Shown here one piece after another: positions 1,326-39,993 of a stretch of DNA of 43,819 nt. Location of the stretch: the NCBI GenBank assembly GCA_028293825.1, contig JAQGNY010000002.1:1-43819 (forward strand), in the 5' to 3' direction. A program made the translations under genes and the position numbers. The notes under the pieces are model-generated. The model saw only the letters and a program-made list of their open reading frames with translations. It had not been told where the DNA came from and made no database searches. Numbering within the stretch: the first letter of the stretch is position 1; every line of letters begins with the position of its first letter. The DNA is from Verrucomicrobiaceae bacterium (GTDB lineage: Bacteria; Pseudomonadota; Gammaproteobacteria; Pseudomonadales; CAMLJR01).

Positions 1326-2663
1326 TTAAATAACCTCACCGATTAGCATTTGCTGTAATTGCTTAACGCTGTCCTCGAACGAAACCGAATCGCGCAAACC
1401 CTGCCTTAAAAATGCGCGGATATACGGCAGCATGCGAATCGCTTCGTCGGTTTCCGGATCGGCGCCGGCCACGTACGCGCCGACAGAAATCAAATCGCGG
1501 CTTTGCTGATAGCGCGAATACAACTGCTTCAAGCGCTGCATCAATTTCATGTGCGCCTCACTGACAACGTTAGGCATCGCGCGGCTGATCGACGCTTCGA
1601 TATCGATCGCGGGGTAATGACCTTCGTCCGCGAGCACACGCGACAGCACCACGTGACCGTCAAGAATCGCACGCGCCGAATCGGCCACCGGGTCCTGCAA
1701 GTCGTCTCCTTCGGTAAGCACCGTATAAAACGCGGTGACCGAACCTCTGCCGGTGGCGTCGTTGCCAGCGCGCTCGACCAGTGCTGGTAGTTTCGCAAAC
1801 ACCGAAGGCGGATAGCCTTTGGTCGCCGGCGGTTCGCCGACCGCCAACGCGATTTCGCGCTGCGCCTGCGCATAGCGCGTCAACGAATCCATCAGCAGCA
1901 AAACCTGTTTGCCTTCATCGCGAAAATACTCGGCAATACGCGATGCCAAGGCTGCAGCGCGCAACCGCATCAGCGGCGCATCGTCGGCTGGCGATGCGAT
2001 CACCACTGCGCGGCGCAGACCTTCCTCGTCGAGTACCTGTTCGATAAATTCTTTCACTTCGCGACCGCGCTCGCCGACCAGTCCAACTACCACTACTTCG
2101 GCTTCGGTGAAGCGCGTCATCATGCCGAGCAGCATGCTTTTACCCACGCCGGAGCCGGCGAACAAGCCGAGCCGCTGACCGCGCCCCACGGTCAGCGCCG
2201 CGTTAATGGCGCGAATGCCGACATCAAGCACTTCGCTAATCGGTTTGCGTTGCAGCGGATTGATGGTCGGGCCTTCGAAATCAATGGTATCGCGACAGCC
2301 GAGCGGCCCTTTGCCGTCGAGTGGGCGGCCTGAGCCGTCAATCACACGGCCAAGCAATTCGGGACCGACTTGAATACGGGTCGAGCGTTGCACCGGAATT
2401 ACTCGCGCGCCCGGCTGCAGGCCGTCGAATTTCTCGGTCGGCATCAGGAACACGCGTTCCTCGGAAAAGCCCACTACTTCGGCTTCGATATAGCGGCCCC
2501 CGCGCATGCTGACCAGGCAACGGCTGCCGATGGCGACGCCGAGACCGACTGCTTCCAACGTCAACCCAACCATGCGCACCAAGCGTCCGGCGCGGGCGGG
2601 CTGCGGTTTCGCGTCGCGCAAACGCTCGCCGCGCTGTTGCAACGCGGCGGCGAAATTAGTCAT
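1326..2663 (-). CDS. fliI: flagellum-specific ATPase FliI
   Basis: FliI hydrolyses ATP to energise early steps of flagellar protein export, acting at the cytoplasmic face of the basal body with FliH and FliJ. The 445-residue protein has the F1-beta-like fold. The P-loop is AGSGVGKS at about 169-176, and the Walker B stretch LLLMDS has its acidic residue near 259. It is followed by the [11 protein letters not shown] segment typical of type III secretion ATPases. The length is normal. Its ATG overlaps the 3' end of fliH by 8 bp, and fliJ follows after 5 bp, so the three are translationally coupled. No key residue is missing. Confidence 0.97.
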
Positions 2664-3387
2664 CGAGATCGTCCAGCAAGGTGCCCGGCTCTACCAGTTC
2701 GGCGGCGGCACTGTCGGCCAGCATTTGCGCGGCAATCTGGCGGAAGCGCAATTCGATGCTGAAATCGACCAGGCTGTGTTCGGTGATGACTTTACAGCCG
2801 CCACGATCCAACCGGTTGTCGCTTTGCAGGCGCCAATTCGGCGGCCAGTCGGCGTGATCGCGGACCAGCTCTAATTGCTGCGAATTGAGAACAACGGTGA
2901 TATTGCGTTCGCCGACCGGCAGCTCGCGCACGGCGCGGCGCACTATCGGCAGCAATTGTTCGGCCGGCAGAGCGGGCTCGCGATTTAACACGGCGCGGGC
3001 GATATCGAGCGACAGCTGCGTCATTGCGGTTTCGATAGCGGCGCTTTGCTCGGCAATCGGATCGAACAGGTTTTGCATGACCGTGCGCAACTCAGCGACT
3101 TGCTGGGCCAGCTCGGCACGCGCGGCGGCGCGACCTTCCTGCATACCTTGTTCATAGCCCGCGGTGCGGCCTTCTTTAACGCCGTCAGCAAAGCCCTCGC
3201 GTTGCGCCTGGGCGGTAATATCTTCGAGCTGACGCGCAGTCAATGCCCGCGCCACCACGCGATCGGCAGGATCGCGACCGCTTTGCGCAACGCCGGTTGC
3301 GGTCACCTTGCCCTGCTCGACATCGGGCAGTGACCAGTTGACGAATTCACCGGTTTGCGCCGCGGGAATACGGGTTTTTTCTATCAC
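2656..3387 (-). CDS. fliH: flagellar assembly protein FliH
   Basis: FliH holds FliI inactive and tethers it to the export gate and C-ring. The 243-residue protein shows the hallmark glycine-spaced helix, [18 protein letters not shown], near residues 64-81 (GxxxG-type repeats). Its C-terminal domain contains [19 protein letters not shown], the FliH/YscL signature that contacts the FliI N-terminus. I place the start at GTG 3387, because GGAG lies 7 nt upstream on the minus strand. The in-frame TTG one codon earlier is too close to that ribosome site. The gene is preceded by an unusually long 165-bp gap from fliG and overlaps fliI by 8 bp. Confidence 0.93.
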
Positions 3388-9148: not shown

Positions 9149-10129
9149 ATGACACAACCCGTTCGCGTTACTGTGACCGGCGCCGCCGGCCAGATTGGCT
9201 ACGCCCTGTTGTTCCGCATAGCCGCCGGCAACATGCTCGGTGCAAATCAGCCCGTAATTCTGCAGCTGCTCGATATCACCCCAGCGCTCGGCGCGTTGAA
9301 CGGCGTGAAGATGGAGTTGGACGATTGCGCATTCCCGCTGCTCGCTGGCGTTGTTGTCACCGACGATCCGAAAGTCGCCTTCAAAGACGCGGATTACGCG
9401 TTGCTGGTGGGCGCGCGTCCACGCGGTCCGGGCATGGAACGTAAAGACTTGCTCGAAGCCAACGCCGCGATTTTCTCGGTGCAAGGCAAAGCAATCGGCG
9501 AAGTCGCCAGCCGCGACATCAAAGTATTGGTGGTCGGCAACCCAGCCAACACCAATGCGCTGATCACACAACGCAATGCGAAAGGCATCGACCCGAAAAA
9601 CTTCACCGCGATGACCCGTCTCGATCACAACCGCGCCGCCACTCAACTCGCGCAGAAAACCGGCACCACGGTTAACGACGTGACCAACATGACGATTTGG
9701 GGCAATCACTCGTCCACGCAATACCCGGATCTGTTCCAGGCGAAAGTGAAAGGCAAACCGGCGCTCGATCTGGTCGACCAGACTTGGTACAAAGAAACCT
9801 TCATTCCGACCGTGCAACAACGCGGCGCCGCGGTAATCGCAGCGCGCGGTTCGTCGTCGGCGGCGTCTGCTGCTAACGCGGCAATCGATCACGTCCGCAC
9901 GTGGGCGCTCGGCACCGAAGGCGACAACTGGGTCAGCATGGGCGTGTATAGCGACGGCAGCTACGGCGTAGCCGAAGGTCTGATCTATTCGTTCCCGGTG
10001 CGTACCAAGAATGGCAAATGGGAAATCGTGCAAGGTTTGACGATTGACGCATTCAGCCAAGAAAAAATCAAAGCCACAGAAAAAGAACTTACCGAAGAAC
10101 GCGATGCGGTAAAACATTTGCTGCCGTAA
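9149..10129 (+). CDS. mdh: malate dehydrogenase
   Basis: This enzyme interconverts malate and oxaloacetate with NAD in the citric acid cycle. The 326-residue protein belongs to the cytosolic-type MDH branch found in many beta- and some gammaproteobacteria, not the enterobacterial type. The NAD-binding loop is GAAGQIG at 11-17. Substrate arginines lie in [11 protein letters not shown] (88-98) and TRLDHNRA (156-163), and the catalytic His187 is in IWGNHSS. The length is normal. A Rho-independent terminator follows directly, so the gene is monocistronic. The long open frame on the opposite strand of this gene is a codon-bias shadow. Confidence 0.96.
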
Positions 10130-10145
10130 TCGGTCAGCGGATCAG

Positions 10146-10181
10146 AAAAGGGGGGAACGCTCTGCGTTTCTCCCTTTTTTT
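10146..10181 (+). terminator. Rho-independent terminator of mdh
   Basis: Seventeen bases after the mdh stop, AAAAGGGGGGAACGC pairs with GCGTTTCTCCCTTTT across a 3-nt TCT loop, allowing G-U pairs. A run of seven T residues ends the site. It is in the right place and orientation to end mdh transcription. Confidence 0.85.
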
Positions 10182-10348
10182 CGATTTAAGTTACTGAATT
10201 GCGCGCTTAAATTTGCCGGAACGAAATCACCGCTCTACTATTTATGAAGAAAAATAGGTTATGAACAAAAGCATGGATGGCAAAAACTCATACGCAAACT
10301 AACACCTCAAAACTTACGCTCGACTTCTAAACATTACTCGCAGGCACC

Positions 10349-11101
10349 ATGGCCCTACTTAAACAAATTCTTGCCCGACTGGGTTTGAAGTCCGCTTCAA
10401 ACGGCAGCGACATGTCGGACAATTATTCGCAGCTCGAACTGTTGCAGAGTCGCCACAGTTTTATCGAGGTGAAATTCCCTCGCATCGAACAAAACTTCCA
10501 AAGCATGATTTTGGAGTTGCATCCCGACGACAGCTATTTACTGATCGACGAATTGTATCCGCCGGAAAAACGCCTGGAATTATTGGAAGGCGATTCCGCA
10601 GAAATCAGCGCACAAGCACCCGGCATTAAAATTTCATTTTTTTCAAAATTGCTCGCCCGCGAAAGTATCGAAGGCATACCCGTTTACCGCATGGAACTGC
10701 CGGAAGAAATTGGCTCCAGCCTGCGTCGACGCGCTTATCGTATTTATGTCGAGCGCGAAAATGGTTTGAACATTGATATTCGCGACAGCGATGGCCAACC
10801 GTTCGATGCGCGCATCGTCAATTTATCCAGCGACGGCATCAAGCTATCGCTGCGCGGCGATGTCAGCAAACTGCTCGACAAAAATCGACTGCTCGAAAAA
10901 TGTGTGATCAAACTGCCAAATCATATTGATATCGATTGCAGTATCGAAGTCCGCAACATATACGTAATCCGCACACCGTCCCTGCACACATTGGCCGGCG
11001 CCACACTCACCGTGTCGATGCCATCGCACAGCACCAAGCTCGGTCAATATCTCGCCGCGATACAACGCAAACAACGCCGCCGTGAGGCCCGCTTAGCGTA
11101 A
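10349..11101 (+). CDS. PilZ-domain protein, YcgR-like
   Basis: The 250-residue protein has an N-terminal YcgR-type domain (about 30-120) followed by a PilZ domain. PilZ domains bind cyclic di-GMP through RxxxR and D/NxSxxG motifs. Here RRAYR is at 127-131 and NLSSDG at 158-163, with Asn in place of the usual Asp. In E. coli YcgR brakes the flagellar motor when c-di-GMP rises, and a similar motility role is plausible here because the window encodes a flagellum. The gene stands alone: about 170 bp lie between the mdh terminator and its start, and it ends 3 bp from the convergent ABC permease gene. Confidence 0.8.
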   Translation: MALLKQILARLGLKSASNGSDMSDNYSQLELLQSRHSFIEVKFPRIEQNFQSMILELHPDDSYLLIDELYPPEKRLELLEGDSAEISAQAPGIKISFFSKLLARESIEGIPVYRMELPEEIGSSLRRRAYRIYVERENGLNIDIRDSDGQPFDARIVNLSSDGIKLSLRGDVSKLLDKNRLLEKCVIKLPNHIDIDCSIEVRNIYVIRTPSLHTLAGATLTVSMPSHSTKLGQYLAAIQRKQRRREARLA

Positions 11102-26646: not shown

Positions 26647-28488
26647 ATGTCGTGGATGCAAACGAGCGTGACGAAAATCGGCCGTAACGACCCGTGCCCC
26701 TGCGGTAGCGGCAAGAAATACAAGCAATGTTGTCAGCGACAAAATGAATCGCAAAAAGAAGTAAAAACGGTCGAGAATCTGTCGACTCAAAATCTCATAG
26801 CGACGGCAATCGAGCATCAACGCGCCGGCCAGCTGCCACAGGCGGCGGCCATCTATCAGCAAATACTTCAGTCGGAGCCCACCAACGTCGATGCGTTGCA
26901 TCTGCTGGGATTAATTGCGCAGCAGACCGGCCAGCTTGATATCGCCGTTGATTTGATCCGCGAAGCGATCCGCATAAAACCGTTGGGCCCGATGTATTAC
27001 AACTTAGGCGTTACGCTGCACGCGCAGGGTGATCTCGATGCAGCGGCCGAGAGTTATCGGCACGCCATCGCACTCCATCCGCAGGACGCCAAAGTGCATA
27101 GCAATCTCGGCGCGGTACTGCAGCAGCAAGGTAATCTCGACGACGCGATTACTAGTTATCGCACAGCAATTGCGCTCAACCCGCAGGACGCCGGCGCCTA
27201 TGGCAACCTCGGCGTTGCGCTGGAAATGCAGGGCGATCCGACCGCAGCCATCGACAATTATCGCCGCGCACTCGCACTCAATCCCAACGACGCCAAGACG
27301 CATAACAATTTTGGCAACGCGTTGCGCGAGCAGGAACAACTCAGCCAAGCCGTCGACAGTTTGCGCACCGCCATCGCGTTAAAACCGGACTACGCCGAGG
27401 CGCACAATAATCTCGGCAATGCATTGCAGGATTTGGGGCAGCTCGACGCTGCTATCGCCAGCGTTCGCACCGCGCTCGCGCTCAATCCCGACTATTCCGA
27501 TGCGCACTGGAACGAATCGCTCGCCCTGCTGATGCAAGGCCAGTTGGAACAAGGCTGGGCCAAGCACGAATGGCGACTGCAGCAGCGCGAGCATTTCACC
27601 GACTACCGCAACCTGCTCGCGGTGCGGCCTTTGTATGCGGGCGAAAATCTAGCCGGCAAGACTATTTTGGTATGGGCCGAGCAAGGCGTCGGCGATGAAA
27701 TCTTTTTCGCCGGTGTACTGCCCGATGTAATTCAGGCCGCCGGCCATTGCGTTGTCGAATGCGACGCTCGCCTCGTGCCACTCTACGCGCGCTCGTTCCC
27801 GGGCGCCGAAATCATCCCCAAATGCTATCCGCCGCACCCGCGCACGCAGCAGGCAGATATCGACTGGCAATGTCCGATCGGCAGTCTGCCGCGCTGGTTT
27901 AGGCCGACACTCGACAGCTTCCCGCGCCATCACGGCTATCTCATCCCCGATCCGCAACGAGTGGCATTCTGGAAACAGCGCTTCGACGCGCTTGGACCGG
28001 CACCGAAAATCGGTATCACTTGGCGCAGCAAGCGCCGCAGCGCAGGCCGTGATCTGCATTACACCGACCTCAATCAATGGGGCCCGATCCTGACCATCCC
28101 GGGCCTCACCTTTATCAATCTGCAATACGACGAATGCCGTGCTGAACTCGATGCGGCTCGCGAAAAATTCGCTATCGAAATTCATGACTGGGCCGATATC
28201 AATCAGATGAACGATCTGGACGATGTGGCCGCGTTGATGAGTGCGCTCGATCTGGTGATCGCACCGACTACGACGCCGAGTATCATGGCCGGAGCCGTCG
28301 GCGCCCCAGCCTGGATGCTGCTGACACGGCATATTCTGTGGAAAACACTGGGAACCGAATACATTCCGATGTTCCCGGACTTGCGCCCGATCTGGCGCCC
28401 GCGCAATACCACCTGGGATACCGTCCTCGAAACGGTTGCTGCGGAGCTTCGCGATAAGGTCGAGCGCCATCAACCCATCAGCCTATAA
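26647..28488 (+). CDS. SEC-C / TPR / glycosyltransferase fusion protein
   Basis: This 613-residue protein has three parts. An N-terminal SEC-C zinc motif, NDPCPCGSGKKYKQCC (Cys17, Cys19, Cys28, Cys29), is followed by about eight tandem TPR repeats of roughly 34 residues (about 50-310). The C-terminal domain (about 330-600) resembles GT9/TPR-linked glycosyltransferases (VWAEQGVGDEIFFAGVLPD, KIGITWRSKR, DDVAALMSALDLVIAPTTT). TPR-linked transferases commonly glycosylate proteins, and this one heads the nonulosonic-acid operon with only 46 bp to legB. It is therefore the best candidate here for the transferase, perhaps acting on flagellin. The acceptor and donor are inferred, not shown. Confidence 0.8.
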   Translation: MSWMQTSVTKIGRNDPCPCGSGKKYKQCCQRQNESQKEVKTVENLSTQNLIATAIEHQRAGQLPQAAAIYQQILQSEPTNVDALHLLGLIAQQTGQLDIAVDLIREAIRIKPLGPMYYNLGVTLHAQGDLDAAAESYRHAIALHPQDAKVHSNLGAVLQQQGNLDDAITSYRTAIALNPQDAGAYGNLGVALEMQGDPTAAIDNYRRALALNPNDAKTHNNFGNALREQEQLSQAVDSLRTAIALKPDYAEAHNNLGNALQDLGQLDAAIASVRTALALNPDYSDAHWNESLALLMQGQLEQGWAKHEWRLQQREHFTDYRNLLAVRPLYAGENLAGKTILVWAEQGVGDEIFFAGVLPDVIQAAGHCVVECDARLVPLYARSFPGAEIIPKCYPPHPRTQQADIDWQCPIGSLPRWFRPTLDSFPRHHGYLIPDPQRVAFWKQRFDALGPAPKIGITWRSKRRSAGRDLHYTDLNQWGPILTIPGLTFINLQYDECRAELDAAREKFAIEIHDWADINQMNDLDDVAALMSALDLVIAPTTTPSIMAGAVGAPAWMLLTRHILWKTLGTEYIPMFPDLRPIWRPRNTTWDTVLETVAAELRDKVERHQPISL

Positions 28489-29582: not shown

Positions 29583-30761
29583 ATGAATGCGACCAGCGCG
29601 CAGCGCTCACTGGCCGATCAAGTCATTGCGGCGATACGTGCCGTGGTGGGCGCGGGTCCAGTGCCATTGCATGAACCCAGTTTTGCCGGCAACGAACGCC
29701 TCTATCTGCAAGAATGCATCGATTCAACCTTCGTCTCGTCAGTCGGCAAGTTTGTCGATCGATTCGAAGCGGAACTGGCCGCTTATACCGGCGCCAAGCA
29801 CGCCGTCGCACTGGTGAATGGCACGGCGGCTTTGCATATCGCGCTGAAGTTGGCGGGCGTCAAAGAAGGCGACGAAGTGCTGGTTCCGGCGCTCTCCTTT
29901 GTCGCCACCGCCAATGCGGTCACTTATTGCGGCGCCATCCCGCATTTTGTCGACAGCGAATCGCTCACGCTGGGGATGAATGCCGCCAAGCTGCGCGCTT
30001 ATTTAAACGAACACACCGAACAGCGCAGCAATCAATGCATCAACCGCGCGACCGGCCGAGTTATTCGCGCCATCGTGCCGATGCATACTTTCGGTCATCC
30101 GGTCGATCTGGAAGGACTGCTGGCCATCGCGCACGATTTCAATCTGGCGCTGCTCGAAGATGCGGCCGAATCGCTCGGCAGCTACTACCGCAATCAACAC
30201 ACCGGCACCTTCGGCCTGATGGGAACGCTGAGCTTTAACGGCAACAAGACCATCACCACCGGCGGTGGCGGTGCCATTCTGACCAACGACAGCGCGCTGG
30301 CGCGGCGCGCCAAACATCTCACCACCACTGCCAAATTGCCGCACGCTTGGGAGTACTGGCACGACGAGATTGGCTATAACTACCGTATGCCGAATTTAAA
30401 CGCCGCCCTCGGGTGTGCACAGCTGGAACAACTGCCCGCCATGCTCGATGCGAAAAGAGCTGTGTTTCACCGCTATCAAGAGGCCTTTGCGCCGCTTACT
30501 GGCCTGCGTGTCGTGGCTGAGCCCGAACATTGCCAAAGCAATTACTGGTTGCAGACGCTGCTGCTGGATACCGCGTTTGCCGAGCAACGCGATGCAATTT
30601 TAAAAGCCACTAACGATGCAGGATTTATGACCCGCCCGGCGTGGACGTTGATGCATGAGCTGACGCCCTTCAAGGATTGCCCGCGTATGGATTTGGCCGG
30701 CGCGCAGTCGCTGGTGCAACGTTTGATCAATATTCCGAGCAGCTCGAGGCTGATCGCGTGA
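29583..30761 (+). CDS. legC: NDP-4-keto-6-deoxy-hexose 4-aminotransferase LegC
   Basis: LegC adds the 4-amino group to the LegB product with glutamate as donor and PLP as cofactor. The 392-residue DegT/DnrJ/EryC1-type enzyme (ATG 29583) has ALVNGTAALHIAL, LLEDAAESLGS with Asp193, and the Schiff-base Lys222 in SFNGNKTITTGGGG. Its N-terminus, PLHEPSFAGNERLYLQECID, is the LegC subgroup hallmark. The end overlaps the GTG of the acetyltransferase gene. An upstream in-frame start lies inside legB and is not credible. Confidence 0.92.
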   Translation: MNATSAQRSLADQVIAAIRAVVGAGPVPLHEPSFAGNERLYLQECIDSTFVSSVGKFVDRFEAELAAYTGAKHAVALVNGTAALHIALKLAGVKEGDEVLVPALSFVATANAVTYCGAIPHFVDSESLTLGMNAAKLRAYLNEHTEQRSNQCINRATGRVIRAIVPMHTFGHPVDLEGLLAIAHDFNLALLEDAAESLGSYYRNQHTGTFGLMGTLSFNGNKTITTGGGGAILTNDSALARRAKHLTTTAKLPHAWEYWHDEIGYNYRMPNLNAALGCAQLEQLPAMLDAKRAVFHRYQEAFAPLTGLRVVAEPEHCQSNYWLQTLLLDTAFAEQRDAILKATNDAGFMTRPAWTLMHELTPFKDCPRMDLAGAQSLVQRLINIPSSSRLIA

Positions 30762-31387
30762 GCAAGCCGAGCTTGATTTTAATCGGCGCCGGCGGCCATG
30801 CGCATGCGTGCATCGACGTGATCGAGCAGCAGGATCAATTCGAGATTGCCGGATTAGTGGGAACGTCGGAAGAACTCGATGCCCGACATTTTTCTTATTC
30901 CGTGATTGCGACCGACAGCGATTTGCACGCGCTCAGTAAAACTTATCGCTATGCATTTATCAGCGTGGGACAGATTCAGTCGCCAGATCTACGCACGCGT
31001 CTTTATCAAGGCGCCGTCAACGCGGGATTTCAATTGCCAATCATTCTCGCGCCTACTGCCTATGTGTCGCGGCACGCCAGTATCGGTGCCGGCAGCATCG
31101 TGATGCATGGCGCTGTTGTGAATGCGGGAGCCGCAATTGGCGTTAATTGCATCGTCAATACGCGAGCAATAATCGAGCACGACACCACGGTCGGCGACCA
31201 TTGCCACATTTCAACCGGCGCTATTCTCAATGGCAATGTGACCGTCGGCGCCGGCAGTTTTATCGGCAGCGGTAGCATCGTCAAAGAAGGCGTTTCTATT
31301 GGCGCGGGCTGCATGGTCGGGATGGGATTGTCGGTGCGGCATAACCAAAATGATCACACGCGTTTTGTGGGCGCCAATAAAACATGA
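30758..31387 (+). CDS. hexapeptide-repeat acetyltransferase (NeuD/PglD family)
   Basis: This 209-residue protein has an N-terminal Rossmann-like part (GAGGHAHACIDVIEQ) and a left-handed beta-helix of hexapeptide repeats. The catalytic His141 is in AIIEHDTTVGD. By position between LegC and LegI it most likely N-acetylates the 4-amino sugar, the LegH step. NeuD-type O-acetylation of the finished sugar is the alternative. It starts with GTG at 30758, overlapping the legC stop (GTGA), and its own end overlaps the next gene (ATGA). Confidence 0.85.
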   Translation: MSKPSLILIGAGGHAHACIDVIEQQDQFEIAGLVGTSEELDARHFSYSVIATDSDLHALSKTYRYAFISVGQIQSPDLRTRLYQGAVNAGFQLPIILAPTAYVSRHASIGAGSIVMHGAVVNAGAAIGVNCIVNTRAIIEHDTTVGDHCHISTGAILNGNVTVGAGSFIGSGSIVKEGVSIGAGCMVGMGLSVRHNQNDHTRFVGANKT

Positions 31388-32391
31388 ACCGTCGAACGCT
31401 CATCATCGCCGAAGCCGGCGTCAACCATAACGGCAGCCTGGCGCTCGCCAAGCAGTTGATCGATGTCGCGGCCGAGGCCGGCGCGGATTTCGTAAAATTC
31501 CAAACCTTTACTGCCGACCGCTTGGTCACACGTACCGCACCGAAAGCCAACTATCAAAATCAACGCACCGACAACGCTGAATCGCAGTATGAAATGTTGC
31601 GCAGCTTGGAACTCAGTCCCGAATTACATCGCGAACTTATTGCGCATTGTCGAACGCGCGGCATCGGATTTCTTTCCACCGGTTTCGATATTGCAAGCAT
31701 TGATCTGCTGATGGCGCTGGGGATTAAACAGGTAAAAATTCCGTCCGGGGAAATCACCAACCTGCCCTATCTGCGCCACATCGGCGGTTTAAATAAAACC
31801 GTTATTCTTTCGACCGGTATGGCGACATTGAATGAAATCGAAGCCGCGATTGATGTGCTCGAACACGCCGGCACACCGCGCTCGACCATAACGGTATTGC
31901 ACTGCACCACCGAATATCCCGCGCCGATGACCGAAGTGAACTTGCGCGCCATGCAAAGTATTCAAGCTGCGCTCGGAGTGAGCGTGGGTTACTCCGATCA
32001 CACGTCGGGCATTGAAGTTGCGATTGCCGCGGTCGCGCTGGGCGCATCGATTATCGAAAAACATTTCACGCTCGATCGCAACCTGCCCGGCCCCGATCAC
32101 AAAGCCAGTCTGGAGCCGGCCGAATTGAAAGCGATGGTGAACGCAATTCGCAATATTGAACTGGCGTTGGGTGACGGCACTAAACGCCCCACGCCAAGTG
32201 AAGAAAAAAATAAAGCGATTGTGCGCAAATCATTAATGGCCAGTCGCGAAATAAAAGCCGGCGATATTTTCAGCGCCGATAACATCATCACCAAGCGTCC
32301 CGGCTCCGGTATTTCACCAATGCGCTGGGATGAAATAATCGGGCAAAAAGCACCGCGCGATTTCGCCGCCGATGAGTTGATCGAACTGTGA
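31384..32391 (+). CDS. legI: nonulosonic acid synthase (LegI/NeuB family)
   Basis: This enzyme condenses a 2,4-diamino-6-deoxy-mannose derivative with phosphoenolpyruvate to give the nine-carbon acid. The 335-residue protein has the NeuB barrel (IAEAGVNHNGSLALAKQLID, GADFVKFQTF, VKIPSGEITNLPYL, GYSDHTSGIE, IEKHFTLDRNLPGPDHKASL). A C-terminal antifreeze-like SAF domain begins near SLMASREIKAGDIF. Together with a NeuC-type epimerase, this points to legionaminic rather than pseudaminic acid. ATGA and GTGA overlaps join it to both neighbours. Confidence 0.93.
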   Translation: MNRRTLIIAEAGVNHNGSLALAKQLIDVAAEAGADFVKFQTFTADRLVTRTAPKANYQNQRTDNAESQYEMLRSLELSPELHRELIAHCRTRGIGFLSTGFDIASIDLLMALGIKQVKIPSGEITNLPYLRHIGGLNKTVILSTGMATLNEIEAAIDVLEHAGTPRSTITVLHCTTEYPAPMTEVNLRAMQSIQAALGVSVGYSDHTSGIEVAIAAVALGASIIEKHFTLDRNLPGPDHKASLEPAELKAMVNAIRNIELALGDGTKRPTPSEEKNKAIVRKSLMASREIKAGDIFSADNIITKRPGSGISPMRWDEIIGQKAPRDFAADELIEL

Positions 32392-33572
32392 ATAGCGAAA
32401 TTAAAAATCGAAAAATTTGCGTCATCACCGGCACCCGCGCCGAATACGGTTTGCTGCGTTGGGTCATGCAAGGCATCAAGGACGATCCGGCGCTCACACT
32501 GCAAATTATCGCGACCGGCATGCATTTGTCGCCCGAATTCGGCCTCACCTACCGCGCAATCGAGCTCGATGGCTTTTATATCGATCGCAAAGTTGAAATG
32601 CTGACCAGCTCGGATTCGCCGGTCGGTATCGTTAAATCAATGGGGTTGGGCCTGATCGGTTTTGCCGATGCGTTAAACGAATTGCAACCTGATTTAATCG
32701 TGGTGCTCGGTGATCGCTTCGAAATTTTCTCGGCGGTGGCGGCAGCGCTGGTCGCACGGATACCGGTTGCGCATATTCACGGCGGTGAGGCTACTGAAGG
32801 GTTAATCGACGAAGCGTTGCGTCATTCGATTACAAAAATGTCTCATCTACATTTCGTTGCAGCCGAAGAATATCGCCAGCGCGTCATTCAATTGGGCGAG
32901 CAACCCGAGCGGGTATTTTTAGTCGGCGGCTTAGGCATCGACAATATCAAGCGTTTGCCGTTGCTCACGCGCAGTGAACTTGAATCTTCGCTAGGATTTG
33001 CGCTCGGCAAAAAAAATCTGCTCATTACGTTTCATCCAGTCACGCTGGAAACGGCAACGGCCGAAATTCAAATGGCGGAATTATTAGCCACCTTAGCTGA
33101 GCAAAAAGATACGCAACTTATTTTCACGCTACCAAATGCGGATACCGACGGTCGAGCTTTAATCAAAATGATCGAGCAATTCGTCGCGCAGCACGCGCAG
33201 GCGCACGCCTTTGCCTCGCTCGGCCAACTGCGGTATTTGTCGTGCGTTTCTCAGGTAGATGGCGTGGTCGGCAATTCGTCGAGCGGTCTGACTGAGGTGC
33301 CGAGTTTTCGTAAAGGGACTGTCAATATCGGCGACAGACAACGCGGACGTTTGTGTGCGCCGAGTATCATCAACTGCGAGCCGACTCAATCAGCTATTGC
33401 AGCAGCATTGGAAGCACTTTATTCCGATGCTTTTCAATCCAGCTTGAATCAAGTAGAAAATCCTTACGGAGAAGGCGGTGCCAGCGAAAAAATTATTGCG
33501 ATCCTAAAATCCATTGCGCTCGATGATTTAATTAAAAAGCGTTTTTATGATTTGGATCGACCATGCGCATAG
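32388..33572 (+). CDS. legG: hydrolysing 2-epimerase (LegG/NeuC family)
   Basis: LegG removes the nucleotide and epimerises C2 of the di-N-acetylated sugar to provide the manno-configured substrate of LegI. The 394-residue protein belongs to the UDP-GlcNAc 2-epimerase superfamily. It shows CVITGTRAEYGLLRWVM, VVLGDRFEIFSAVAAAL, the HIHGGEATEGLIDEALRHSITKMSHLHF block, ITFHPVTLE and GNSSSGLTEVPSF. It starts with GTG inside the legI stop (GTGA). A hydrolysing epimerase, rather than PseG, is the main reason to call the pathway legionaminic. Confidence 0.92.
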   Translation: MNSEIKNRKICVITGTRAEYGLLRWVMQGIKDDPALTLQIIATGMHLSPEFGLTYRAIELDGFYIDRKVEMLTSSDSPVGIVKSMGLGLIGFADALNELQPDLIVVLGDRFEIFSAVAAALVARIPVAHIHGGEATEGLIDEALRHSITKMSHLHFVAAEEYRQRVIQLGEQPERVFLVGGLGIDNIKRLPLLTRSELESSLGFALGKKNLLITFHPVTLETATAEIQMAELLATLAEQKDTQLIFTLPNADTDGRALIKMIEQFVAQHAQAHAFASLGQLRYLSCVSQVDGVVGNSSSGLTEVPSFRKGTVNIGDRQRGRLCAPSIINCEPTQSAIAAALEALYSDAFQSSLNQVENPYGEGGASEKIIAILKSIALDDLIKKRFYDLDRPCA

Positions 33573-34447
33573 TGTTTATTGGCGCGGTTGAATTTTCGCA
33601 ACGTGCGCTTCAACGCTTATTGACGATGCAGGCAAATGTTGTCGGCGTTTGTACGTTGCAGCAATCGGAATTTCATTCCGATCATGTCGATCTTGCAGCC
33701 GATTGTAATGCCCATGGCATTCCGTACTTTTATGCGGAAAATATCAATGCAAGCGAAGCCGTGAATTGGATTCGCGACAAAATGCCTGACGTTATTTTTT
33801 GTTTCGGCTGGTCGCAATTATTGCAGCAAGAAATTCTCACGCTGGCACCGCACGGCGTGGTTGGATTTCATCCGGCGGCACTGCCGTCCAATCGTGGGCG
33901 TCATCCGCTGATTTGGGCGTTAGTGCTGGGGCTTGAGTCCACTGCTTCGACATTTTTCTTTATGGATGGCGGCGCCGACCGCGGCGATATTCTTTCGCAA
34001 CGCGAAATAATTATTAATGATGAAGATAACGCGCGCGTGCTGTACGACAAAGTGACGCGAATCGCCCTGGAACAAATAGAAGAGTTTTTGCCGTTGCTAG
34101 CTTCCGGCTCGTTTCAGCGCAAGAAGCAAGATCATCGACTCGCTAATACATGGCGCAGACGCGGACGCAAAGACGGCGAAATCGATTGGCGCATGGCGGC
34201 CCAATCCATTCACAATTTGGTGCGCGGTTTAACCAAGCCATATGTCGGCGCTCATTTTACCGCTGCGGATGGAACGGAAATTAAAGTCTGGAAAACTGCG
34301 ATGGTTAATGACGCGCCGAAAAATGCAGAGCCCGGAAAAATCCTGATGCAAAAAAAAGAAGGGCCTGTTGTAAAGTGTGGCGATGCAGCGATTTGTTTGT
34401 TGGAAACAGAACCTTTATTTAAGCCCGAAGTTGGTAGCTATCTATGA
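33563..34447 (+). CDS. formyltransferase, methionyl-tRNA formyltransferase-like
   Basis: This 294-residue protein has the formyltransferase fold used by Fmt, ArnA and sugar N-formyltransferases, with a C-terminal Fmt_C-like part. The active-site strand reads GFHPAALPSNRGRHP (101-115), and the conserved Asp142 is in GADRGDILSQ. His103 is present, but the usual Asn two residues earlier is Gly101. In this operon it probably formylates an amino group of the sugar, using formyl-tetrahydrofolate; initiator-tRNA formylation is unlikely. It overlaps legG by 10 bp and the next gene by ATGA. Confidence 0.8.
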   Translation: MRIVFIGAVEFSQRALQRLLTMQANVVGVCTLQQSEFHSDHVDLAADCNAHGIPYFYAENINASEAVNWIRDKMPDVIFCFGWSQLLQQEILTLAPHGVVGFHPAALPSNRGRHPLIWALVLGLESTASTFFFMDGGADRGDILSQREIIINDEDNARVLYDKVTRIALEQIEEFLPLLASGSFQRKKQDHRLANTWRRRGRKDGEIDWRMAAQSIHNLVRGLTKPYVGAHFTAADGTEIKVWKTAMVNDAPKNAEPGKILMQKKEGPVVKCGDAAICLLETEPLFKPEVGSYL

Positions 34448-35106
34448 AAACCATCGTGATTGCTCCGCATCCTGACGACGAAGTACTCGGCGTCGGCGGA
34501 ACACTATTGCGGCGTAAAGCCGAAGGCGCAACAGTCGCATGGTTGATAGTGACGAGCATTTCCACACAGGCCGGCTGGAGCAAAGAAAAAGTAAAGCAAC
34601 GCGTCGACGAGATTAATCGGATTACACATTTTTTCGGCTTTGATGAAGTGTTTCAACTCAACTTTCCGTCTGCGCAGCTCGACCGCATTCCGATGAGCGA
34701 TCTGGTTTCCGCAATTTCCGCCGCGTTCAAATCCTATCAGCCGAACGAAGTATTTTTACCGCATCCGGCCGATATTCACAGCGATCACCGTGTTGTGTTT
34801 GACGCCGTCGCCAGTTGCACGAAGTGGTTTCGCTATCCGTCGATTACGCGAATTCTTGCGTACGAAACGTTGTCCGAAACCGATTTCGGTTTGAGCGCGG
34901 AGCATGCTTTTCGGCCGAATGTATTTGTGAATATCGAATCATTTCTTGACAGAAAATTGCAGGCGATGGAAGTTTATAAATCGGAGCTGGGCGAATTTCC
35001 ATTTCCGCGCAGTAGCGAAGCAATTAAAGCTCTTGCTGCAGTGCGCGGTGCGGCATCAGGTTTTAAAGCAGCCGAAGCATTTGAACTATTGCGCGAGCGC
35101 AATTAA
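34444..35106 (+). CDS. PIG-L/LmbE family deacetylase
   Basis: PIG-L enzymes are zinc N-deacetylases of sugars such as GlcNAc-phosphatidylinositol and bacillithiol precursors. The 220-residue protein begins with IAPHPDDEVLGVGG (His9, Asp11, Asp12) and has the second zinc/catalytic region LPHPADIHSDHR with His112 and His115. It is coupled by ATGA to the formyltransferase upstream. The pair suggests removal of one acetyl group and its replacement with formyl on the sugar; this is inference. It has no signal peptide, so it acts in the cytoplasm. Confidence 0.88.
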   Translation: MKTIVIAPHPDDEVLGVGGTLLRRKAEGATVAWLIVTSISTQAGWSKEKVKQRVDEINRITHFFGFDEVFQLNFPSAQLDRIPMSDLVSAISAAFKSYQPNEVFLPHPADIHSDHRVVFDAVASCTKWFRYPSITRILAYETLSETDFGLSAEHAFRPNVFVNIESFLDRKLQAMEVYKSELGEFPFPRSSEAIKALAAVRGAASGFKAAEAFELLRERN

Positions 35107-35110
35107 TTCG

Positions 35111-35148
35111 AAGGTGTGAAACGCATGACAGAAGCGCAACTACTTTGA
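35111..35148 (+). promoter_or_regulatory. ribosome site and 7-codon mini-frame ahead of the nucleotidyltransferase
   Basis: AAGGTG at 35111-35116 is well placed for an ATG at 35125-35127, but that frame is only MTEAQLL and stops at TGA 35146-35148. The stop overlaps the TTG (35145-35147) that opens the nucleotidyltransferase frame (TTGA). This is either a coupling leader peptide or the trace of an indel: two bases fewer or one more would fuse MTEAQL to the downstream TEQRWRQ. Confidence 0.5.
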
Positions 35149-36215
35149 CTGAACAACGCTGGCGCCAAGCTATCCTCGCCGCTGATTCCATTATCGAGCA
35201 GGTGATTCACAACCTCGATCGGGTGGCGATCAAAATCGTGCTGGTCGTTAATGAGCGCGGTGAATTGGAAGGCACAATTTCCGACGGCGACGTGCGGCGC
35301 GGCTTGCTCAAGGGATTGTCGCTGGCGAGTCCGATCACCACCATCATCCATCGCAACCCGTTGGTAGTTCCGCCCGAGCTGGGACGTGAAATGGTGATGC
35401 GATTAATGGTCGCAAATAAAATTCTTCAAATTCCCATCGTCGATGAACGGCACCATATTGTCGGCCTGCATCTATGGGATGAAATCACCACCCCAATCGA
35501 ACGCCCCAATTTAATGGTGATCATGGCCGGCGGCATGGGCACGCGCTTGCGTCCGCATACGGAAAATTGCCCGAAACCGTTATTGCCCGTAGCGGGCAAG
35601 CCAATGCTCGAGCACATCATCGAGCGCGCCAAGCTTGAAGGATTTAAACATTTTGTTCTGGCCGTTCATTATCTCGGGCACATGATCGAAGACCATTTTG
35701 GAAATGGCGAGCGGCTCGGTGTGCGTATCGATTACTTGCGTGAACAGACACCGCTCGGAACAGCCGGCGCATTGAGTTTATTGTCTCCAGCACCGCAGAC
35801 ACCGTTCGTGGTGACCAATGGCGATGTGCTAACCGATATCCACTATGGCGAACTGTTAGATTTTCACGTGCGTCACAACGCCGCCGCGACGATGGCAATT
35901 CGCGTGCATGAATGGCAGCACCCTTATGGCGTCGTGCAAACGCAGGGCGTAAATATTGTCGGCTTCGAAGAAAAACCAATCGCCCGCAGCCATATCAATG
36001 CGGGTGTTTACGCGCTCGCGCCAACTGCGCTCAGCGTTCTGAATACGGCGGAACATTGCGATATGCCCAGCGTATTCGCGCGCTTGCAGGAAAAGTCCGA
36101 ACGCACTGTCGCCTATCCGATGCACGAACCGTGGCTGGATGTGGGACGGCCAGCGGATTTGCTATCGGCAAACGGTCAGATGGCCGAGAAAACTTCGCCC
36201 GAGCAAAAACAATGA
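35145..36215 (+). CDS. ptmE: CBS-domain sugar-1-phosphate nucleotidyltransferase (PtmE-like)
   Basis: In Campylobacter PtmE makes the GDP-linked precursor of legionaminic acid. This 356-residue protein has the same plan. Two CBS units lie in the first 120 residues (LVVNERGELEGTISDGDVRR; IPIVDERHHIVG). The nucleotidyltransferase domain follows, with MAGGMGTRLRPHTENCPKPLLPV from about 137 and later VTNGDVLTDI. The only in-frame start near the N-terminus is TTG 35145, with no good ribosome site of its own; see the mini-frame just upstream. Its end overlaps the next gene by ATGA. Confidence 0.85.
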   Translation: MTEQRWRQAILAADSIIEQVIHNLDRVAIKIVLVVNERGELEGTISDGDVRRGLLKGLSLASPITTIIHRNPLVVPPELGREMVMRLMVANKILQIPIVDERHHIVGLHLWDEITTPIERPNLMVIMAGGMGTRLRPHTENCPKPLLPVAGKPMLEHIIERAKLEGFKHFVLAVHYLGHMIEDHFGNGERLGVRIDYLREQTPLGTAGALSLLSPAPQTPFVVTNGDVLTDIHYGELLDFHVRHNAAATMAIRVHEWQHPYGVVQTQGVNIVGFEEKPIARSHINAGVYALAPTALSVLNTAEHCDMPSVFARLQEKSERTVAYPMHEPWLDVGRPADLLSANGQMAEKTSPEQKQ

Positions 36216-36928
36216 TCAATGGTAAACGCGTTATCGCAGTTATTCCGGCGCGCGGTGGCTCCAAAGGTTTACCGAAAAAAAACGTTAAAATATTGTGCGG
36301 CAAACCACTGATCAACTGGACCATTCAAATCGCGTTGAAATCAAAATTTATCGATGCATTGATTGTCAGCACTGACGATCAGGAAATCGCCGACATCGCA
36401 AAGGATGCTGGCGCATCGGTGCCTTTTTTACGTCCGGCGGCGTTGGCGGCAGACACAACACCAACCATTGATGTGATTGAACATGTGTTGGAATTTTTCA
36501 ACAAAGAAGCAACGCAATCTTTCGATTATTTTATTTTGCTCGAACCGACGTCGCCGCTGCGTGAAGACGACGACATCGACAATATGCTGATTAAACTCGA
36601 TGCAAACGCAGATAAATTCGATGCCATTATCAGTGTCGGCGAAGTCGGCGAGCATCCTTCGATTATGAAAAAATTGATCGGCGATGGCATCGAACCTTAT
36701 TGCCCGGATCTGCAAATGGCATTGCGCAGACAAGATAATGCGCCGGCATTCTTCCCCTACGGCGTTGCGTATATTTCAAAAATAGAAACGCTGCTGGCCG
36801 AGCGAACCTTTTATCCAAAGCGCTGCACGCACTACCGCATCAAGCGCTATCAGAATTACGAGATCGACGATATTTACGATTTCCTCGCCGTTGAAAGCAT
36901 CATGCGTCACGAATGGAAATTGGAATGA
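36212..36928 (+). CDS. legF: CMP-legionaminic/nonulosonic acid synthetase
   Basis: This enzyme activates the free nine-carbon acid with CTP to give the CMP-sugar used by glycosyltransferases. The 238-residue protein (ATG 36212) has the cytidylyltransferase signature IPARGGSKGLPKKNVK at 11-26, LIVSTDDQEIADIA, and LLEPTSPLREDDDID, and ends with NYEIDDIYDFLAVESIM. It belongs to the short NeuA/PseF/LegF class without a C-terminal esterase domain. Start and stop codons overlap those of both neighbours. Confidence 0.92.
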   Translation: MINGKRVIAVIPARGGSKGLPKKNVKILCGKPLINWTIQIALKSKFIDALIVSTDDQEIADIAKDAGASVPFLRPAALAADTTPTIDVIEHVLEFFNKEATQSFDYFILLEPTSPLREDDDIDNMLIKLDANADKFDAIISVGEVGEHPSIMKKLIGDGIEPYCPDLQMALRRQDNAPAFFPYGVAYISKIETLLAERTFYPKRCTHYRIKRYQNYEIDDIYDFLAVESIMRHEWKLE

Positions 36929-39228: not shown

Positions 39229-39993
39229 ATGCTAAACGAAAAAGTAATTGTAGTTACCGGTGGTGGCGGCTTATTAGGCGGTCATTTCTGTCGCGCGATT
39301 GCGGCTCAGGGCGGTATTGCCATTGTTGCCGATGTGAATCTCGATGCCGCGCAATCGATTGTCGCTACAATTAATACGAACAACGGTCGCGCCCAAGCAG
39401 TCGCGCTCGATATCACCGACGCGGATTCTGTTGAGCGAGTGATTGCTTCACTTCACGCCGTTTACGGTCGTATCGATGCAGTAATTAATAATGCCTATCC
39501 GCGCAATGCACGCTGGGGGAAAAAACTGGAGGAAGTGACTTACGCCGATTTCTGCGAAAACGTGGGATTGCATTTGGGCGGTTATTTTTTGGTAGCGCAA
39601 AAATTCGCGCTGTATTTTCGCGCCCATGGCGGCGGCAATATTGTGAACATGGCGTCCATTTACGGCACGCAAGCGCCACGATTCGATATTTACGCGGACA
39701 CGGGCATGACCATGCCGGTGGAGTACGCCGCTATCAAAGCGGCCATCATCCAACTGACGAAATATTTTGCGCAGTATTTCAAGACCGATAACATTCGTTG
39801 CAACTCGCTTTCGCCGGGCGGAGTTCTCAATCATCAACCGGAAACATTTCTAAAAAAATACAGCGATTACTGCGGCAGTAAAGGAATGCTGGAACCCGAC
39901 GACATTATTGGCGCTTTGTTATTTCTGTTGTCCGACTCAAGCCGTTATATGAATGGGCAAAACCTTATCGTTGACGATGGGTTTTGTTTATAA
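39229..39993 (+). CDS. short-chain dehydrogenase/reductase (PtmA-like)
   Basis: This 254-residue classical SDR has the NAD(P) loop GGGGLLG at 11-17, VINNAYPRN (85-93), the catalytic Ser143 in MASIYG, and Tyr166/Lys170 in YAAIK. The C-terminus YMNGQNLIVDDGFCL is standard for the fold. PtmA of Campylobacter flagellin-glycan clusters is a related SDR. It is the last gene of the operon, 42 bp from the convergent nucleoid-protein gene. I see no strong terminator in that gap. Confidence 0.87.
   Translation: MLNEKVIVVTGGGGLLGGHFCRAIAAQGGIAIVADVNLDAAQSIVATINTNNGRAQAVALDITDADSVERVIASLHAVYGRIDAVINNAYPRNARWGKKLEEVTYADFCENVGLHLGGYFLVAQKFALYFRAHGGGNIVNMASIYGTQAPRFDIYADTGMTMPVEYAAIKAAIIQLTKYFAQYFKTDNIRCNSLSPGGVLNHQPETFLKKYSDYCGSKGMLEPDDIIGALLFLLSDSSRYMNGQNLIVDDGFCL

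Follow-up and report, generated by a model that had tools for sequence, protein, structure and literature searches.

The legionaminic acid operon and its embedded gene pair

The window analysed here, a 43,819-nt stretch of DNA (contig JAQGNY010000002.1), carries on its + strand an operon for legionaminic acid (Leg), a nonulosonic acid, in which genes for an ArnA-like formyltransferase (FMT) and a PIG-L zinc N-deacetylase (PIG-L) are embedded straight after legG. The order of genes on that strand is: a tetratricopeptide repeat (TPR) protein, legB, legC, neuD/legH, legI, legG, FMT, PIG-L, a CBS-nucleotidyltransferase, a CMP-sugar synthetase, a GFO/IDH/MocA oxidoreductase, a glutamate-semialdehyde-mutase-like pyridoxal phosphate (PLP) enzyme and a PtmA-like short-chain dehydrogenase/reductase (SDR). 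Judged from comparison of genomes, the FMT and PIG-L proteins probably exchange an N-acetyl for an N-formyl group at N5 of Leg, at whatever stage of the pathway this takes place. The pair and the Leg genes that precede it are as follows (the start codons of neuD/legH, a GTG, of legC and of the LegF-like gene listed further below were picked by eye):

33563..34447, +, ArnA-like formyltransferase (FMT), 294 residues; Pfam N and C domains, structural model, ArnA fold, active-site columns
34444..35106, +, PIG-L zinc N-deacetylase, 220 residues; PF02585, HPDDE and HSDH motifs, structural model, fold
32388..33572, +, LegG hydrolysing 2-epimerase, canonical type; TIGR03568 488.8 bits (cut-off 235.9), canonical placement in the LegG tree
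31384..32391, +, LegI legionaminic acid synthase, NeuB family; TIGR03569 516.2 bits (cut-off 399.65)
30758..31387, +, NeuD/PglD-type acetyltransferase, probable LegH (N7 acetyl); TIGR03570 189.8 bits (cut-off 160.8), PglD_N
29583..30761, +, LegC aminotransferase, DegT family; PF01041 308 bits
28535..29563, +, LegB NAD-dependent 4,6-dehydratase; TIGR04180 526.6 bits (cut-off 475)

LegB, LegI, LegG and NeuD thus all exceeded the curated cut-offs of their family profiles. The original prediction had described the two genes as overlapping and lying between legG and the nucleotidyltransferase gene, and the coordinates agree: the FMT and PIG-L open reading frames (ORFs) share an ATGA (34444-34447), the last 10 nt of legG lie within FMT, and the nucleotidyltransferase ORF begins at 35145. 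Such ATGA overlaps are frequent in operons and are of little weight as evidence; the conservation of gene order described below weighs more.

FMT belongs to the folate-dependent formyltransferase superfamily, both of its domains being recognised by Pfam (Formyl_trans_N, 65.9 bits, cut-off 26.1; Formyl_trans_C, 74.9 bits, cut-off 21.1). The closest folds to its AlphaFold 2 (AF2) model (predicted local distance difference test score, pLDDT, 95.8) were the ArnA structures 5j63 and 2bln, with template modelling scores by query length of 0.87 and 0.89 and 28-29% identity. Two family assignments were ruled out by score: ArnA equivalog (NF005998, 178 of a cut-off of 777) and the housekeeping methionyl-tRNA formyltransferase Fmt (TIGR00460, 140.5 of 201.5). 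When aligned with ArnA, His103 and Asp139 are retained and Gly101 occupies the column of the catalytic Asn102; formyltransferases with this glycine are referred to below as G-type.

PIG-L, the only PF02585 match in the whole genome (85.5 bits, cut-off 28.2), contains the motifs HPDDE (residues 9-13) and HSDH (112-115). Across 24 PIG-L sequences, H9, P10, D11, D12, E13, D114 and H115 are invariant and H112 nearly so. The structures nearest to its AF2 model (pLDDT 92.9) are diacetylchitobiose deacetylases, LmbE-like proteins and BshB, so that domain, HPDDE and HxDH motifs, and fold all identify it as a PIG-L/LmbE deacetylase. The bacillithiol deacetylase BshB itself was ruled out (TIGR04001, 59.5 of 182.5; the scores for BshB1 and BshB2 were also below their cut-offs).

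Recurrence of the pair and the partners of the deacetylase

A Leg-type FMT (E <= 1e-110; next best 8.3e-55) was found in 4 of 274 genomes of the class, adjoining LegG in all four; PIG-L followed in three, and in the fourth the contig ended inside FMT. In 32 of the profiled loci a G-type FMT occurred together with LegI or LegG; a PIG-L scoring above 200 bits was present in 30 of them, and the two remaining were L136, the contig of which ends inside FMT, and L107, where PIG-L is readable in two frames. One of the 30 (L080) has its FMT in fragments ∼9 kb away from PIG-L. In L107 the two-frame PIG-L matches (10001-10659) stand beside an intact FMT, a frameshift in either the gene or the assembly. 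Phyletic profiling, proposed with the original prediction as a check, therefore did not place the pair mostly outside sugar clusters. Gene order was also conserved: for 40 FMT-profile ORFs in loci with a PIG-L above 200 bits, the next profiled gene (within 400 bp) was PIG-L downstream in 33 and LegG upstream in 20, and a gap of 0 between the end of FMT and the start of PIG-L was likewise seen in L030, L043, L044 and L057. ArnA-like proteins, too, reach just above 200 bits with this profile (L181-L184 and L186-L190 pass), and outside Leg loci the threshold does not separate them from FMT.

The pair appears to be an optional part of Leg clusters, since LegB is far commoner: LegB (TIGR04180, E <= 1e-100) was present in 17 of the 274 genomes of the class and in 39 of 299 genomes of the Metabacillus phylum, and PIG-L in 7 of 54 LegB-anchored loci. 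The window and L017 (genome G242), each with FMT and PIG-L, are not among these 54; as several of the 54 are short contigs, their PIG-L count is a lower bound. A second set was anchored on PIG-L and comprised the best 80 loci among the matches listed when a PIG-L alignment was run against a collection of species genomes; they came from Pseudomonadota, Bacillota, Bacteroidota, Chloroflexota, Actinomycetota, Omnitrophota and others. When these 80 were ranked by PIG-L similarity, 19, 18, 16 and 4 of successive groups of 20 had a LegI-, a LegG- or a high-scoring LegB-like gene, i.e. the association with Leg weakens as PIG-L diverges.

PIG-L loci without FMT carried other neighbours, which in the examples scanned with Pfam were a WbqC-like protein (PF08889), an ATP-grasp protein with a PylC-like N-terminal domain, or a GNAT. 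Exactly one of these four unrelated partners (FMT, WbqC-like, ATP-grasp, GNAT) was present in 40 of the 41 PIG-L-anchored loci with LegG and LegI (FMT only in 19, WbqC only in 12, GNAT only in 6, ATP-grasp only in 3, and WbqC plus ATP-grasp in 1). The mean over permutations was 18.6 loci, and none of 10,000 permutations reached a count as high. In the window, the G-type FMT is the single partner. Among the 54 LegB-anchored loci, a partner was found in 5 of 7 with PIG-L vs. 3 of 47 without it (one of the three being a contig cut inside FMT). A later set, examined with the same profiles, was drawn from the order to which a Sulfurimonas metagenome-assembled genome (MAG) belongs and consisted of 8 PIG-L loci; L212 was cut by the contig end, and the other seven all had a partner, six of them exactly one (FMT in 4, of which L211 also has an ATP-grasp gene, and GNAT, ATP-grasp and WbqC in 1 each). 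Because genes next to PIG-L served to build the hidden Markov models of WbqC, ATP-grasp and GNAT, finding any partner at all is partly circular in the PIG-L-anchored set; the exclusivity, the LegB-anchored set and the later Sulfurimonas-order set are less affected. Amidotransferase genes and a PseJ-like group of formyltransferases were excluded from the partner count, L177-L180 (repeats) and L141 (which shares a contig with L044) were dropped from the locus counts, L080 lies outside the 41 since no LegI was found there, and L080 and L177-L180 were dropped from the trees. A merely coincidental pairing of FMT and PIG-L was ruled out by the recurrence across phyla together with the near-exclusivity of partners.

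All trees were quick ones (LG+G4, with the Shimodaira-Hasegawa-like approximate likelihood ratio test, SH-aLRT, as the only support). In that of PIG-L, sequences from FMT loci with Leg genes (18 changes over 30 rows) were mixed with those from loci of other types (22 changes over 33 rows), and the PIG-L of the window was sister to a WbqC-type PIG-L (SH-aLRT 98). This intermixing suggests that the role of PIG-L does not depend on its partner. The simplest reading is that PIG-L looks like a general unmasking step that frees the same nitrogen each time, the partner setting the new group. PIG-L would then be the constant part of a wider module, and the second enzyme (FMT, WbqC-like, ATP-grasp or GNAT) would decide the N5 substituent. 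We give an even chance to a broader proposal, in which the N5 group of nonulosonic acids is altered by a general and as yet undescribed module acting on the nucleotide sugar, PIG-L unmasking the nitrogen, one of at least four interchangeable enzymes re-acylating it, and LegG being exchanged for large groups.

Several loci do not fit so simple a rule and weigh against it. Outside the 41, more than one partner was seen in L080 (FMT, WbqC and ATP-grasp) and in L110, L114, L118 and L211 (FMT and ATP-grasp); some PIG-L loci have no partner (e.g. L139, L148); and among PIG-L loci lacking LegG, 4 with LegI and 10 without it had none of the partners sought. A PseJ-like gene was found in five loci having LegI but no LegG.

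A few loci are described here in their own right. In L080, from a Helicobacter MAG, several types of the module stand side by side: besides PIG-L and the FMT fragments there are WbqC, two ATP-grasp genes and two or three genes resembling LegG. The Leg clusters of L043 (9353-10666), L050, L056, L092, L123, L126 and L131 contain a gene family judged by eye to be similar to the amidotransferases of N-acetyl sugars (acetamidino formation); the one member scanned had no Pfam match. In the IMG/VR loci L031 (9372-11363, 14657-15829), L032 and L033, three consecutive genes encode a PglD/NeuD-like acetyltransferase, PIG-L and a WbqC-like protein. In L031, scanned with Pfam and PHROGs, the trio lies a few genes before that of the terminase large subunit, relatives of which recur in L032, L033, L035 and L098. 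One gene separates PIG-L and WbqC in L034, and both are present in L035 and L098. These loci are perhaps a phage version of the module, for modification of a glycan or of DNA bases.

Stage and position of the predicted exchange

As we propose it, PIG-L would hydrolyse the 2-acetamido group at the C2 nitrogen of a sugar precursor (the future N5), FMT would transfer a formyl group from 10-formyl-tetrahydrofolate (10-formyl-THF) onto the freed nitrogen, and NeuD/LegH would retain the acetyl at the other nitrogen (N7), giving Leg5Fo7Ac. The most likely substrate would be the nucleotide-linked 2,4-diacetamido-2,4,6-trideoxyglucose entering LegG, and less likely ones the free sugar downstream of LegG, or Leg with or without CMP. 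We infer this chemistry, its position and the order of steps from gene content, conservation, the near-exclusivity of partners, the co-variation of LegG, a gene fusion, and the intact motif and fold of PIG-L.

The fusion was found in L072 (2664-4505), from a Sulfurimonas MAG, where LegG and PIG-L form one stop-free frame of 614 residues; the partner type of this locus is WbqC rather than FMT. No second fusion (both halves in one frame, E <= 1e-60) was found among 298 genomes of that order. The co-variation was apparent when partner type was mapped onto trees for the 62 loci with both proteins, which required 4 changes for LegG (17.1 when shuffled) and 16 for LegI (17.0 when shuffled). Likewise, the non-FMT types gathered in the LegG tree (27 rows, 7 changes vs. 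23.3 shuffled), and, when scored against the LegG of the window with a threshold of 270 bits, 24 of 26 FMT-type loci were at or above it and 26 of 28 of the other types below. In the Sulfurimonas-order set the best LegG scores were 450-503 in the three FMT loci with LegG and 183-192 in the three loci with other partners. It therefore looks as if a large new group calls for a different LegG, and on this reading the swap would come before that enzyme; formyl is smaller than acetyl, and the formyl product could pass a canonical LegG.

The alternative that survives best, itself a variant of exchange at N5, is a late one acting on free Leg or CMP-Leg, after LegI or LegF. It would agree with the late modification of CMP-linked nonulosonic acids reported in Campylobacter, and with the unspecialised LegG of FMT loci: these LegGs were mixed among those of clusters without PIG-L (24 rows, 16 changes vs. 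21.3 shuffled), so that nothing in them points directly to a formylated substrate. The idea that they might be specialised for formyl was thus not borne out, the switch of LegG being confined to non-FMT types. Also unfavourable to an early swap, LegG scored below 270 bits in 5 of 37 loci without PIG-L, and L072 and L075 are non-FMT loci with a canonical LegG. Against a late exchange stand the order LegG-FMT-PIG-L, the LegG-PIG-L fusion of the WbqC-type locus, and the fact that LegG, not LegI, tracks the partner type. On balance the late variant appears unlikely, although it holds a larger share than any of the alternatives considered below. A swap before LegG is preferred with little firmness, at slightly less than an even chance, because part of the pattern could come from the co-inheritance of neighbouring genes and because the LegGs of FMT loci do not stand apart from plain ones.

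As to which nitrogen is concerned, that of N7 arises as a free amine via LegC, and a single acyltransferase suffices there. The N5 nitrogen, as the Leg pathway is laid out in PMC6137143, derives from N-acetylglucosamine, i.e. it is acetylated from the start. Since it is blocked by acetyl from the first precursor onwards, any change at N5 requires a deacetylase. The N7 amine is free, and the NeuD-type acetyltransferase for it is still present, whereas N5 needs a deacetylase; N5 is therefore favoured over N7 as the site of exchange. NeuD was found in 16 of 19 FMT plus PIG-L clusters with LegC, LegG and LegI, a share similar to the 24 of 31 in such clusters without PIG-L or a partner. If N7 were the site instead, PIG-L would strip the acetyl added by NeuD/LegH and FMT would formylate that nitrogen. 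Sugars of this kind exist: 7-N-formyl nonulosonic acids are known, one of them made by PseJ, which we take to be the formyltransferase of the pseudaminic acid pathway, acting on an aminotransferase-made amine with no deacetylase needed. For the same reason, however, a deacetylase would be needless at N7, and adding an acetyl to remove it again would be wasteful. The pattern expected of N7-formyl was instead seen in L147 and L084, Leg clusters with a canonical Asn-type formyltransferase in which NeuD was not found (L139, with an Asn-type formyltransferase together with NeuD, is an exception), while the G-type FMT clusters mostly retain NeuD. Exchange at N7 is thus improbable. Of the original prediction, which had the pair exchanging acetyl for formyl at N5 or N7, the exchange is supported by the comparison of genomes and N5 is favoured over N7.

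The preferred reading, N5 exchange, finds its closest parallel in Halorubrum sp. PV6, the S-layer glycan of which contains 5-N-formyl-Leg (PMC6137143). Its cluster resembles that of the window in having Leg genes, a formyltransferase gene straight after legG, neuD, and a product with one formyl and one acetyl; the step from m/z 1546.65 to 1697.70 (2+) in that paper amounts by our arithmetic to 302.1 Da, i.e. one formyl plus one acetyl. Position 5 is stated there with reference to Kandiba et al. 2012. The PV6 cluster differs in being archaeal, in that its formyltransferase is a predicted one, and in containing a gene (1052) left undescribed in the text. Against our reading, the main text of PMC6137143 mentions no deacetylase, PIG-L or LmbE.

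The glycine of FMT raises the question of whether it is still a formyltransferase. The catalytic triad of these enzymes is Asn-His-Asp, which the replacement of Asn by Gly101 leaves incomplete. The column of ArnA Asn102 was Gly in 40 of 43 FMT ORFs and Asn in 2 (L026 and L084, neither adjoining PIG-L), the last being a fragment without the column; among the PIG-L-linked Leg-type FMTs examined it was Gly in all. These observations count against formyl transfer, and FMT might instead transfer another group or hydrolyse formyl-THF. Such a loss is nevertheless rather improbable given that His and Asp, both domains and a fold close to that of ArnA are retained, and that another group of formyltransferases, labelled PseJ-like by sight, has V or C at the same position; the hydrolase domain of 10-formyl-THF dehydrogenase is a further case to set beside these. 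The glycine is not quite a mark of PIG-L partners only, as L185/L193 has a G-type FMT (2092-3060) on a 5.4-kb contig without PIG-L. There it stands beside a weakly LegC-like ORF.

Lastly, the pair might act on another sugar of the same glycan (e.g. an N-acetylated hexosamine), as ten loci with a G-type FMT and PIG-L but neither LegI nor LegG (one of them, L060, a 6.6-kb contig) would allow, and these weigh against a strict tie to Leg; this too is hard to credit, since Leg genes flank the pair both in the window and in its close relatives, and the PIG-Ls of those ten loci fall mostly into a separate clade (8 of 10 rows of the PIG-L tree). The distant G-type FMTs of such loci (L110, L114, L116, L117, L118, L099, L102, where the two genes are on opposite strands, and L106) probably formylate another amino sugar. 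In L110, from Sphingomonas, the single locus of this group that was scanned, the pair lies among polysaccharide glycosyltransferases.

Neighbouring genes, related systems and significance

The remaining genes of the operon are:

26647..28488, +, TPR protein (SEC-C and TPR; Pfam TPR families) with a long non-TPR C-terminal part, FlmG-like in layout
35145..36215, +, CBS plus nucleotidyltransferase; PF00483, PF00571, TTG start
36212..36928, +, putative CMP-nonulosonate cytidylyltransferase, LegF-like; PF02348
36913..37929, +, GFO/IDH/MocA oxidoreductase; PF01408, PF22725
37926..39218, +, PLP enzyme of the glutamate-1-semialdehyde aminomutase type; NF004856 682.3 bits (cut-off 486)
39229..39993, +, SDR oxidoreductase, PtmA-like; NF006619 343.9 (cut-off 255), NF050062 PtmA 249.9 (under its cut-off of 350)

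The CBS-nucleotidyltransferase is presumably LegX/PtmE-like and concerned with GDP-sugar supply, and the PLP enzyme we take to be PtmF-like. A mini-ORF of 7 codons (35125-35148, ATG to TGA) overlaps the TTG start of the former at 35145, which may bear on the choice of start site or on translational coupling. The LegF-like protein has a CTP_transf_3 domain, and its best NCBIfam equivalog, PseF, was below cut-off (150.6 bits vs. 205.7). The TPR gene ends 46 bp upstream of legB. Its product resembles in layout the Caulobacter crescentus FlmG, a 596-residue TPR plus GT-B protein (PMC7591256), and is a candidate flagellin glycosyltransferase. Two matches to the flagellin N-terminal domain were found in the genome, on a contig other than that of the operon.

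Compared with known enzymes, FMT shares with the N-terminal formyltransferase domain of ArnA the fold, both domains and the His/Asp residues, and differs in its low identity, in the Asn102 column and in having no fused dehydrogenase. PseJ (PDB 6ci2, 6ci4) is of the same superfamily, with chains of 192-217 residues vs. 294 in FMT. Diacetylchitobiose deacetylase, BshB and MshB, which act on the 2-acetamido group of GlcNAc-type sugars, share the zinc-site motifs and fold of the window PIG-L, the latter differing in its context of Leg genes. The Leg pathway of Campylobacter jejuni and Legionella pneumophila has LegB, LegC, LegH/NeuD, LegG, LegI and, putatively, LegF in common with the window, but no deacetylation or formylation step as laid out in PMC6137143. 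Formyltransferase genes also occur in flagellin glycosylation islands, e.g. in nine enterobacterial strains with four island types (PMC4875605, PMC5109656); the word deacetylase is absent from the text of both papers.

In the openly licensed literature, covered in part (which does not prove absence from print), no link between PIG-L and nonulosonic acids was found, nor any report there of WbqC with PIG-L or of a formyltransferase with PIG-L in polysaccharides. In the papers covered there, the deacetylases mentioned along with legionaminic acid are other ones. The present analysis goes beyond the original prediction in that PIG-L pairs mostly with one of several acylating genes, that the swap probably precedes LegG, and that FMT belongs to a lineage without the canonical Asn.

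The substituents at N5 partly distinguish the sialic-acid-like sugars of flagella, capsules and S-layers, and no deacetylase freeing N5 was found in the part of the openly licensed literature covered, although this nitrogen carries acetyl from the earliest precursor on. Should the module prove real, it would account for the 5-N-formyl-Leg of Halorubrum and predict 5-N-aminoacyl forms, one of which has reportedly been found in Clostridium. It would also provide a sequence rule for reading the N5 group off a genome, and would give WbqC-like proteins a testable function, that of acyl or aminoacyl transferases for sugar amines.

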